This document shows positions 18,381-21,538 of a stretch of DNA of 64,000 nucleotides, piece by piece. This DNA is from Haloplanus salinus (GTDB taxonomy: Archaea; Halobacteriota; Halobacteria; Halobacteriales; Haloferacaceae): assembly GCF_003336245.1 (NCBI RefSeq), contig NZ_QPHM01000001.1, forward strand, positions 868,001 through 932,000, given 5' to 3'. Every line of letters starts with the position of its first letter. Position 1 is the stretch's first letter. The notes below the pieces were generated by a model, which was not told where the DNA came from, did no database searches, and was given only the letters and a program-made list of their open reading frames with translations. Position numbers and translations under genes: made by a program.

Positions 18381-19346
18381 ATGGAGTGTGACAGGTGCGG
18401 CCGCGAGGCGGTGATGCACGCCGCCTACTCGGGCGCGCACCTCTGTGGCGACCACGTCCGTGCCGCGGTGGAGAAGCGAGTGCGCCGTCGCATCCGGGAG
18501 GACGGCCTCCTGCCGGCGGACGCCTCGCCAGAGAGCCCACAGACGTGGGTGATCGGTCTCTCGGGCGGCAAGGACAGCGTCGTCCTGACGCACGTACTGG
18601 AGGAGACGTTCGGCCGCGACCCCCGCGTCGAGCTCGTCGCCCTCTCGATCCACGAGGGGATCGAGGGGTATCGCGACGAGAGCCTCGACGCCTGCCGGAC
18701 GCTGACGGACGGCCGTGACCTCCGACACGAGGTGGTGTCGTACGCCGACGAACTCGGGGTTCGGATGGACGACGTGGTGGAGAAAGATCCGGAGAACATG
18801 GCCGCCTGTGCGTACTGCGGCGTGTTCCGGCGGGATCTGCTGGAGACGTACGCCGACGAACTCGGCGCCGACAAGCTCCTGACGGGCCACAACCTCGACG
18901 ACGAAGCCCAGACGGCGCTGATGAACTTCTTCCAGGGCGACCTGCAACAGATCGCCAAACACTTCGACGCGAGCCTCGGCTCGTTCGACCGGCGGACGGA
19001 GAGCACCCACTTCGTCCCGCGGGCCAAACCCCTCCGCGACGTGCCGGAGAAGGAGGTGGCGCTCTACGCCCACCTCGCAGACCTGCCGGCCCACATCACC
19101 GAGTGTCCGCACGCCAGCGAGGCGTACCGCGGGGAGATACGGGAGCTACTGTTGAGCGTCGAAGAAGAGCACCCAGGAACTAGACATTCGATCATGGCCG
19201 GTTACGAGGAACTCGCCGAACTCGCCGCACGGCGGTACCGGGACGACGGGACCGAGGACCTGAACGAGTGCGAGCGCTGTGGCTCGAGTACAGGCGGGCG
19301 CATCTGCCGGAAGTGTCGGCTCGTCGAATCGATCGAGGCGGTGTAA
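18381..19346 (+). CDS. ncsA: tRNA 2-thiolation protein NcsA (TtuA/Ctu1 family)
   Basis: Cytoplasmic enzyme that thiolates U34 of tRNAs for Lys, Glu and Gln, using a SAMP-type ubiquitin-like sulfur carrier in haloarchaea. Features in order: N-terminal zinc motif CDRCGREA (residues 3-10) with CGDH at 22-25, the PP-loop SGGKDS at 61-66, the CAYCG segment that contributes to the Fe-S or sulfur site, GHNLDDEAQT, then a second conserved Cys in HITECPHAS, and a C-terminal zinc ribbon with CERCG and CRKC. At 321 aa it is full length and all catalytic Cys are present. Confidence 0.9.
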   Translation: MECDRCGREAVMHAAYSGAHLCGDHVRAAVEKRVRRRIREDGLLPADASPESPQTWVIGLSGGKDSVVLTHVLEETFGRDPRVELVALSIHEGIEGYRDESLDACRTLTDGRDLRHEVVSYADELGVRMDDVVEKDPENMAACAYCGVFRRDLLETYADELGADKLLTGHNLDDEAQTALMNFFQGDLQQIAKHFDASLGSFDRRTESTHFVPRAKPLRDVPEKEVALYAHLADLPAHITECPHASEAYRGEIRELLLSVEEEHPGTRHSIMAGYEELAELAARRYRDDGTEDLNECERCGSSTGGRICRKCRLVESIEAV

Positions 19347-19407
19347 GACGCGTCGCTGGGCGGGTGTCGACGACGAAATGTGATCGGCAGAGAGCGACCG
19401 CGGCCGC

Positions 19408-20577
19408 TCAGCGGATCACGTCGATGCCGTTGCGCTTCTCGACCTGTTCGCGGCCGCCGTCGGACCAAGACGCCTGATCCTGGCCGACGTTGTCGCTCGC
19501 GTCGAGCTCCGAAACGTCCTCGCCGTTGAGGCTGCGTCGGGACTTCTCCGCCTGTCGCTGCGTCGACGGGCCGAGCACCTGCGCGCTCTGGACGCCGGTC
19601 ATGATCGCCATGACCCGCACCTTGCCCTTGTACTCCTCCTGGATGCGCGCGCCCCAGATGACGTTGGCGCTCGCCTCCAGGCGCTCGGTGATGTTGTTGG
19701 CGATGCCCTCGGCCTCTTTCAGCGTGAGGTCTGGGCCGCCCGTGATGTGAACCAGGCCACCACTCGCGCCGCGGTAGTCCACGTCGAGCAGCGGATGGTT
19801 CATCGCGTCGCTCACCACCTCCTGTGACTTGTTCTTGTCCTGCGTCTCGCCGACGAGCATCACCGCGACGCCGCCCTGGTTCATGATCGTGGACATGTCC
19901 GCGTAGTCCAAGTTGATGAGCGAAGGCTGGGTGATGGTCTCGGAGATGCCCTTGACCGTCTCGGCGATGATCTGGTCCATCACCGAGAACGCCTTGCCGA
20001 TCGGCAGGTTGGGCACGTAGTCGAGCAGGCGGTTGTTGTCGAGGACGATGATCGAGTCGGCCTCGCCGCGGAGCTTCTCCAAGCCTTCCTCGGCTTTGAC
20101 CGTGCGGGCGCGCTCGACGTTGAACGGCGTTGAGACCATGCCGACGACGATGGCACCCTGCTCCTTCGCGATCTTCGAGACGACGGGCGCGGCGCCGGTG
20201 CCGGTGCCGCCACCCATCCCGGCGGTCACGAAGACGAGGTCGGCCTCGCCGAGGACTTCCTTGATCGTTCCCTGGGCCATCTCGGTCGCACGCTCGCCCA
20301 TCGAGGGGTCACCACCGGCACCGAGTCCCTGTGTCAGCGACTTGCCGACGAGGATCTTCGTGTCGGCCTCGATCATCTTCAGGTGTTGTTTGTCGGTGTT
20401 GATCGCGACCGTCTCGGCGCCGTCGACGCCGATATTGTACAGCCGGTTGACGGTGTTGTTCCCGGCGCCGCCGGCGCCCACGATGACGATCCGTGGGTCA
20501 CCGAACGCGTCGTCCTCGTCGGCGTCGCGCTGTTCGGCTTCCTCGCGCTCGATGGCGTCTTGGACGAATCCCTGCAT
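19408..20577 (-). CDS. ftsZ2: Cell division protein FtsZ2
   Basis: Tubulin-family GTPase of the archaeal division ring (389 aa). GTP-binding elements are GAGGAGNNT near residue 30, the tubulin signature [12 protein letters not shown], and the catalytic T7 loop NLDYADM. The N-terminus ([12 protein letters not shown] then FGDPRIV) and C-terminal tail ending NGIDVIR match FtsZ2 rather than FtsZ1; in Haloferax FtsZ2 acts in constriction. The first ATG is used, although a GTG two codons upstream overlaps the cdrS stop as GTGA, which points to translational coupling. It is the distal gene of the cdrS-ftsZ2 transcript. Confidence 0.93.
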
Positions 20578-20579
20578 CG

Positions 20580-20762
20580 TCACGCCTTCGCCCAGCTACG
20601 GTTGCGCTTACGGTTGTCGTCGCGGGACTCGCTCTGTTCGTTGAGCATCTCGCGGACTGCCGACCGGATGGCCTCGCTTCGATTCGGGAACTCTCCCGTC
20701 TCGACCATCTGTTCGACCTCCTCGATCTGCTGTTTCGGAATTCGTAGTGTCACACGCTCCAT
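20580..20762 (-). CDS. cdrS: CdrS, short ribbon-helix-helix cell division regulator
   Basis: A 60-residue protein made only of an RHH DNA-binding fold: strand [10 protein letters not shown], then helices [11 protein letters not shown] and [13 protein letters not shown], with a basic tail. Gene order cdrL-cdrS-ftsZ2 and the size match the CdrS system described in Halobacterium and Haloferax, where CdrS controls ftsZ2 and cell-division genes. The ATG used is the one directly before MERVTLR; a longer frame upstream is not supported. Its stop overlaps the possible GTG start of ftsZ2 by four bases. Confidence 0.9.
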
Positions 20763-20954
20763 GGTTACATTCCCCCGGTAAGACGGATGGGGCGTCGCCC
20801 CGATGTGCTGTCTTACACGGGTCAACCGGCCGACGACGGGGGGCTACCCCCATAGTCGGCGGCCCTGTAAGACGACCGTCTTACGCGAACGTACCAAGAG
20901 ACGGATACCTTATAAAATTAACGGCCGTTGTAAGACAAACGGCGTTTACACCGC
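20763..20954 (-). promoter_or_regulatory. cdrS-ftsZ2 promoter with repeated GTAAGAC/GTCTTAC operators and a long leader
   Basis: The minus-strand TATA element TTTTATAAG covers about 20908-20917, so transcription should start near 20885, leaving a leader of about 120 bases before the cdrS ATG. The heptamer GTAAGAC or its complement occurs at 20778-20784, 20810-20816, 20867-20873, 20878-20884 and 20930-20936. The pair at 20867-20884 is a perfect inverted repeat with a 4-base centre (GACC) at the predicted start site; the 20930 copy lies just upstream of TATA. The outer pair in the leader is also inverted, 25 bases apart. The most likely binder is CdrL or CdrS, both RHH proteins. Confidence 0.7.
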
Positions 20955-21470
20955 TTACGGCCGGTCGAGCACGTCGGCAGCAGGTGTCCGCCGTCCACAG
21001 CTCGGACAGAACGCCCAGTCCGACCGGAGTTCGTCGCCACAGTCGCAGAACACCCGGTGGGCGCCCTTCTCTCCGCAGTTCGGGCAGTAGACGTGGCCCG
21101 CGGCCATCTCCTCACCACACTGTGAGCAGGCGTTCCGTCCGTCGCCCGCGTTCCGCGACTCCGCGGCGTCGTCGGCCGTGTCGCTATCCGTCTTACGCTC
21201 CGCCGCCTCCCGGTCGACGGACACGTCCGGTTCCGCCGAGTCGCCATCGACGGTGACGTTGACGTTGATCGCCGGCGGTTCTCGGGACGCGAAGGCGTGT
21301 TCCACCAACAGCGCCTCGAGTCGATCCGACGAGCCGTTCGGGGACTCCTCACGCTCCGCGTCGTCGAGGTAGGTGCGCAACGCTTCGCGCATCACCTCGC
21401 TTTTCGAGGCGTCGAACGCCTCCAACCGCTCGACGAGGTCGTCGGCGGCGCGGAACGTGATCTTGCTCAT
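20955..21470 (-). CDS. cdrL: CdrL, long RHH protein with C-terminal double zinc ribbon
   Basis: 171 residues. The N-terminus is an RHH DNA-binding domain (SKITFRAADDLVERLEAFD then KSEVMREALRTYLDD, residues 2-37). The middle is an acidic linker. The C-terminus has two zinc ribbons: CSQCGE with CPNCGE, and CDCGDE with CPSCGR, giving eight Cys ligands. Position upstream of cdrS-ftsZ2 and domain make-up match CdrL, reported to regulate the cdrS promoter. It ends about 190 bases before cdrS with the operator array between. Its own start region contains a related half-site, so self-regulation is likely. Confidence 0.86.
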   Translation of the reverse strand: MSKITFRAADDLVERLEAFDASKSEVMREALRTYLDDAEREESPNGSSDRLEALLVEHAFASREPPAINVNVTVDGDSAEPDVSVDREAAERKTDSDTADDAAESRNAGDGRNACSQCGEEMAAGHVYCPNCGEKGAHRVFCDCGDELRSDWAFCPSCGRRTPAADVLDRP

Positions 21471-21510: not shown

Positions 21511-21538
21511 CGTGTCTGACGGACGTCTGTCGGACGAC

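Follow-up and report, generated by a model that had tools for sequence, protein, structure and literature searches.

A candidate GTAAGAC operator array at the cdrS-ftsZ2 promoter of Halobacteria

Known RHH operators and the cdr regulators

In RHH operators of the Arc/CopG/MetJ type, neighbouring subsites hold dimers that are separated by roughly one turn of the helix, a layout that would also apply to the cdrS array. They come from bacterial, plasmid or phage systems, and their words differ from the heptad GTAAGAC described here. The Omega/ParB protein of pSM19035, also an RHH protein, reads 5′-WATCACW-3′ heptads with one dimer per word (PMC9499535). Like the heptads at the haloarchaeal cdrS promoter, these are non-palindromic 7-bp words that occur in both orientations and overlap promoters. 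However, the omega heptads are contiguous (7-bp pitch), whereas the copies in the cdrS array lie at least 9 bp apart, start to start. The omega heptads also act in plasmid partition (PMC9499535), while no such role is suggested for the cdrS array.

Two RHH regulators have been placed on division genes in haloarchaea. The sole reproducible ChIP-seq peak of CdrL, a protein confined to Halobacteria, was upstream of cdrS-ftsZ2 in Halobacterium salinarum (Darnell et al. 2020, PMC7439475). That paper gives the ChIP peak but neither a motif nor an operator architecture, and the word “motif” does not occur in it. No CdrL motif was found in the literature searched, in line with the supposition of the original prediction that the operator was undescribed. 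In Haloferax volcanii, ChIP-seq of CdrS yielded 18 sites including ftsZ1, whose motif precedes the start by 50 nt (Liao et al. 2021, PMC8406309). Neither the cdrS promoter nor cdrL is on the published site list. Since the protein used was N-terminally FLAG-tagged and expressed from a plasmid (PMC8406309), the negative at the cdrS promoter is not absolute.

The locus studied here agrees with the CdrL occupancy in H. salinarum (PMC7439475) in promoter, gene order and the single genomic target. Where that work had a peak without a motif, the candidate site reported below is exact to the base and class-wide.

Architecture of the cdrS-ftsZ2 promoter

The window, that is the whole 64,000-nucleotide stretch of Haloplanus salinus DNA that was analysed, carries cdrS on the minus strand (20580..20762, ATG at 20760-20762), encoding a 60-aa RHH protein (Pfam RHH_1, 5.9e-09). 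It is followed by the second gene of the operon, ftsZ2 (19408..20577, minus strand; Pfam Tubulin/FtsZ, 5.9e-44). On the other side lies cdrL (20955..21470, minus strand), whose product combines an N-terminal RHH domain with a C-terminal double zinc ribbon (Pfam DZR and Zn_Ribbon_1). Its Pfam RHH_1 score of 20.4 bits is slightly below the cutoff of 20.5. A PDB search gave no significant match for the RHH domain of CdrL, and CdrS had weak matches to antitoxin and NikR RHH proteins.

A word search of the window recovered all five predicted copies of GTAAGAC or GTCTTAC at this promoter. The claimed gene context also held, with cdrS, ftsZ2 downstream, cdrL and a TATA box between the heptads. The coding strand reads GTCTTAC - TATA - GTAAGAC-N4-GTCTTAC - GTAAGAC - GTCTTAC - ATG, a short non-palindromic word in several copies and both orientations. 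Heptad 5 (20930..20936, plus strand; GTCTTAC on the coding strand) is upstream of BRE/TATA, at a distance of 52 bp from the inverted repeat. The TATA box (20910..20917, minus strand) reads TTTTATAA on the coding strand and is preceded by a BRE-like stretch. Heptad 1 (20878..20884, minus strand; GTAAGAC on the coding strand) is at the expected transcription start. Together with heptad 2 (20867..20873, plus strand; GTCTTAC on the coding strand) it forms the two arms of a perfect GTAAGAC-N4-GTCTTAC inverted repeat at 20867-20884, as had been claimed. The next segment of the presumed 5′ leader (20817..20866, minus strand) is GC-rich, with a strong predicted RNA hairpin, and separates heptad 2 from heptad 3 (20810..20816, minus strand; GTAAGAC on the coding strand). 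A small second hairpin lies between heptad 3 and heptad 4 (20778..20784, plus strand; GTCTTAC on the coding strand), which is followed closely by a purine-rich ribosome-binding region and then by the ATG of cdrS. The presumed 5′ leader holds four of the five heptads and the fifth is upstream of the TATA box, which refines the original prediction.

GTAAGAC or GTCTTAC occurs 62 times in the 3.55-Mb genome, giving 0.0028 copies expected per 160 bp. With just 62 copies available, five within 160 bp lie far outside chance (P of at least five ~1e-15 by Poisson arithmetic), so that the genome-wide counts bear out the excess claimed originally. Nowhere else in the genome do two copies lie within 100 bp, and the inverted repeat occurs just once in exact form; a whole-genome scan for further targets of the repeat found none that was exact and three places with 2 mismatches. 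The window as a whole holds 7 copies against 2.67 ± 1.64 in shuffles, which is weak taken alone. Its other copies, at 19343-19349 (the 3′ end of a PP-loop gene) and 21190-21196 (within cdrL), are probably incidental.

Archaeal transcription starts at a usual distance from the TATA box. In nearly all of 75 representative loci the TATA box lies at an almost constant ~32 bp upstream of heptad 1, and by the usual distance transcription should start at or slightly before heptad 1. The inverted repeat would then cover the start, as judged from TATA spacing. The cdrS transcript has a 5′ UTR and the bicistronic mRNA is ~1,500 nt long (Liao et al. 2021, PMC8406309). A leader of ~100 nt would agree with these observations.

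Conservation across Halobacteria and in CdrL-less genomes

Heptads were found at corresponding positions in the cdrS loci examined, a sample of about 180 loci from 11 families of Halobacteria. The original prediction had named lack of conservation in related cdrS promoters as its own refutation, and it came through that comparison. The cdrS promoters of 75 representatives contained 328 exact copies of GTAAGAC, against 1.74 in shuffles. Heptads 1 and 2 were exact in 75/76 and 74/76 representatives, and heptad 4 in 66/76, including all six without CdrL. Heptad 5 was exact in 56/76 (55/70 of the CdrL-bearing and 1/6 of the CdrL-less representatives) and heptad 3 in 49/76 (48/70 and 1/6). The commonest spacing within the arrays was 11 bp (60 pairs in the 75 promoters). 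Cooperative spacing, as originally suggested, held only in part: the spacer of the inverted repeat varies from N2 to N6 across the class (9-13 bp start to start), and the location of heptad 5 depends on the clade, with at least two alternatives; in most cases it precedes the repeat by 52-53 bp or 61-65 bp.

We scanned 145 whole Halobacteria genomes for GTAAGAC-N(2-5)-GTCTTAC together with a control. The repeat occurred exactly once in 140 of them, and the control had no matches. Wherever coordinates were comparable (58/58 genomes), it lay 68-117 bp upstream of cdrS. Among the exceptions, G139 and G144 had both heptads exact with a 6-bp spacer, G018 had one mismatch and G014 a degenerate second arm. 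The fifth was G124, and its congener G173 had one mismatch. The expectation that the repeat would recur upstream of other division genes was thus refuted, as it is found about once per genome, at cdrS. This near-uniqueness matches the single-target profile of CdrL (PMC7439475).

An orthologue of CdrL was detected in 376 of 391 Halobacteria genomes. Of the 15 without, three (G348, G229 and G362) also had no convincing cdrS and G353 is an 87%-complete draft, so these four assemblies probably just lack the locus. The absence looks real in the other 11 (G001, G002, G007, G026, G093, G135, G137, G182, G260, G281 and G311), some of which are single-contig, though the literature calls CdrL universal in the class. 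Genomes of high completeness that lack a CdrL orthologue come from at least six genera. A search for a substitute in the CdrL-less genomes returned weak RHH matches (22-26 bits), none of them a CdrL orthologue.

Seven of these 11 genomes were within the 145-genome scan, and all seven carried the repeat. Heptads 1, 2 and 4 were exact in all six CdrL-less genera, while heptads 5 and 3 were mostly lost (Fisher P 0.004 and 0.019, over six genera and ignoring relatedness). A CdrL-bearing congener of a CdrL-less member (L168) already has degenerate copies. Because CdrL-less members keep heptads 1, 2 and 4 exact, CdrL is not the sole constraint on the array. Taken at face value, the pattern would mean that CdrL maintains heptads 3 and 5, and that another constraint maintains 1, 2 and 4 as well. 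This second constraint could be CdrS, another factor or leader RNA structure.

Words, readers and origin of the array

The promoters of cdrS and ftsZ1 differ in the word they carry. We counted 36 copies of GTCWGAC and 1 of GTAAGAC in 31 haloarchaeal ftsZ1 promoters, against 11 and 328, respectively, in 75 cdrS promoters of Halobacteria. At ftsZ1, GTCWGAC often occurs as a pair with 11-bp spacing that immediately precedes BRE/TATA, and this GTCWGAC-N4-GTCWGAC pair matches the published -50 position of the CdrS motif in Haloferax volcanii (PMC8406309). GTCWGAC therefore appears to be the CdrS word. The reader would be an RHH protein in either case, but the heptads differ by one base. In addition, the cdrS pair is inverted and lies over the expected start site, whereas the CdrS-type pair of ftsZ1 is upstream of the TATA box. 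The haloarchaeal cdrS promoters share the 11-bp spacing of CdrS-type sites, but neither their word nor their position, four of the five heptads being downstream of the TATA box.

RHH proteins contact DNA through residues of the first beta-strand. In CdrL these were K3-T5-R7 in 39/39 sequences, and in CdrS they were R3-T5-R7 in all examined. The words of these two related regulators thus appear to be a single base apart, GTAAGAC and GTCWGAC. Joint binding of CdrL and CdrS to the array, which the original prediction proposed, fared poorly, as the CdrS ChIP-seq in Haloferax does not include the cdrS promoter and the CdrS-type motif is one base different. The idea that CdrS shares the GTAAGAC array with CdrL is probably wrong, at least in Haloferax.

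Exact GTCWGAC was also present in the cdrL promoters of 36/70 representatives, with a modal position of -50 from the ATG, often with a partner spaced 11 bp away and directly upstream of the cdrL TATA region. This suggests that CdrS controls cdrL. In the window, a one-mismatch CdrS-type pair, GTCTGAC-N4-GTCTGTC, lies upstream of cdrL at 21514..21531 (minus strand). The sole perfect GTCWGAC-N4-GTCWGAC in the genome is at C1:1100335-1100352. It is flanked by a DUF7139 gene and by the gene for volactin, an actin homologue (Pfam Volactin, 8e-135), and CdrS may act on volactin as well.

A different arrangement was found outside the class. Twenty outgroup cdrS loci (L191-L210), from methanogens and other non-haloarchaeal Halobacteriota, had no adjacent CdrL orthologue and no GTAAGAC, and the CdrL RHH region had no match in 11 outgroup genomes searched whole. 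Their cdrS promoters carry arrays of GTCWGAC downstream of TATA at spacings of 11, 22, 33, 44 and 55 bp, which is probably the ancestral CdrS autoregulatory operator. Given these arrays in methanogen relatives without CdrL, the site in haloarchaea seems to have been rewired: GTAAGAC would have taken the place of GTCWGAC at the cdrS promoter of Halobacteria, with GTCWGAC retained at ftsZ1 and present in cdrL promoters too.

The evidence supports the view that the five heptads at the cdrS-ftsZ2 promoter are a genuine array of operator type, and the observation proved stronger than first put forward. The original prediction was right in kind, an RHH operator at this promoter, and its choice of RHH proteins as the natural readers is supported; it did not extend to the outgroup arrays or to the CdrL-less genomes. 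We consider it reasonably probable that the heptads are a double-stranded DNA operator array for RHH dimers controlling cdrS-ftsZ2, with CdrL as the main reader where it is present. One dimer would dock on each heptad; the pair seated on the inverted repeat would lie over the transcription start, and the dimer on heptad 5 would sit directly upstream of BRE/TATA. With all heptads occupied, the promoter would be bracketed and access of TBP, TFB and RNA polymerase limited, and the outcome would be repression or tight metering of cdrS-ftsZ2. CdrS would use GTCWGAC upstream of ftsZ1 and, as predicted, of cdrL, giving a loop in which CdrS acts on CdrL and CdrL on cdrS.

From sequence comparison we infer the assignment to CdrL, as well as which heptads it would touch, the sign of regulation, any cooperativity and the feedback loop. 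The assignment draws on a location upstream of cdrS-ftsZ2 and a single repeat per genome (140/145), both expected of a CdrL operator, on the placement of the repeat ~32 bp downstream of TATA, on the presence of CdrL in 376/391 genomes and on the division of the words by target set. It has to contend with the two-fold symmetry of an RHH homodimer, since the heptad is asymmetric, and with the N2-N6 spacer, which would be unexpected for two rigidly cooperating dimers. Moreover, the ChIP peak comes from Halobacterium salinarum, and the association of heptads 5 and 3 with CdrL rests on six genera.

Several other explanations were weighed against binding by CdrL. Chance or a local compositional artefact would fit the only mildly unusual heptad count of the window, but it is rejected by the genome counts, the shuffle controls and the class-wide conservation, the heptads being kept across 11 families with the inverted repeat about once per genome; we give it practically no weight. 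The array might instead be mainly a CdrS autoregulatory operator derived from the ancestral GTCWGAC array, with CdrL auxiliary at heptads 3 and 5. GTAAGAC is one base from GTCAGAC, with one GTC/GAC half preserved, and pairs within the array are most often spaced 11 bp. The outgroup arrays stand without an adjacent CdrL, and heptads 1, 2 and 4 persist in CdrL-less Halobacteria. However, the 18 Haloferax volcanii sites, obtained with the tagged, plasmid-expressed protein (PMC8406309), exclude the cdrS promoter, and the words are cleanly divided between cdrS and ftsZ1 promoters, which makes this reading rather unlikely. The same retention of the core in CdrL-less genomes, together with the lack of a CdrS peak at cdrS, leaves room for a different haloarchaeal DNA-binding protein that reads GTAAGAC independently of both. 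Such a reading calls for one more regulator, serving a single promoter in each genome, when CdrL already has exactly such a profile, and a search for a candidate regulator found none; we regard it as improbable.

A role of heptads 1-4 mainly in an mRNA leader with alternative folds has more varied evidence on its side. The cdrS leader folds strongly (mean z = -4.1, 75 loci), largely because the heptads are mutually complementary, and the segment between heptads 2 and 3 has a mean z of -2.2 (61 loci, mononucleotide shuffles). Heptads 1 and 3 each have heptads 2 and 4 as alternative pairing partners, beside the ribosome-binding region, and the loop between the repeat arms varies from 2 to 6 nt. 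Over the first six positions, pairing between the sequences that flank heptads 2 and 3 is slightly better in true than in swapped species, in a comparison that ignores relatedness, and in CdrL-less genomes the transcribed heptads 1, 2 and 4 outlast the untranscribed heptad 5. Against this, 53 aligned leaders showed no compensatory double changes inside heptads; the heptad 3 variants in them (GTAAAAC) break pairing and do not restore it. The leader had no match in Rfam, and heptad 5 is the same word although it is not transcribed from the cdrS promoter. An explanation by RNA structure alone was therefore demoted to a minor rival with very little probability. As the word upstream of TATA is beyond the reach of RNA structure, DNA recognition would be primary, with RNA a possible second layer.

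As for the origin of the array read by CdrL, we put forward one scenario tentatively, as possible but short of likely. In the ancestor of Halobacteria, an autoregulatory CdrS array of GTCWGAC at 11-bp pitch in the cdrS promoter would have given way to an inverted operator of GTAAGAC, a word with one base changed, and CdrL would have arisen as the new RHH paralogue that reads it. CdrS would have kept ftsZ1 and gained cdrL, giving a two-regulator feedback loop that sets FtsZ2 and FtsZ1 levels, and the core heptads would double as an mRNA leader element.

Archaeal control of the amounts of division tubulins is poorly known, and CdrL has one known target and no described operator. Occupancy of the cdrS promoter by CdrL and of ftsZ1 by CdrS was already known from others. 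New here are the outgroup GTCWGAC arrays at an exact 11-bp periodicity and the CdrL-less haloarchaea that keep heptads 1, 2 and 4. The array marks a so far undescribed candidate control site for a known division regulator, one that is exact to the base, class-wide and at a near-unique genomic address. Each regulator would have a distinct word, GTAAGAC or GTCWGAC, one base and one beta-strand residue (K3/R3) apart. With an older arrangement apparently preserved in the outgroup, the wiring of cdrL, cdrS-ftsZ2 and ftsZ1 becomes testable.
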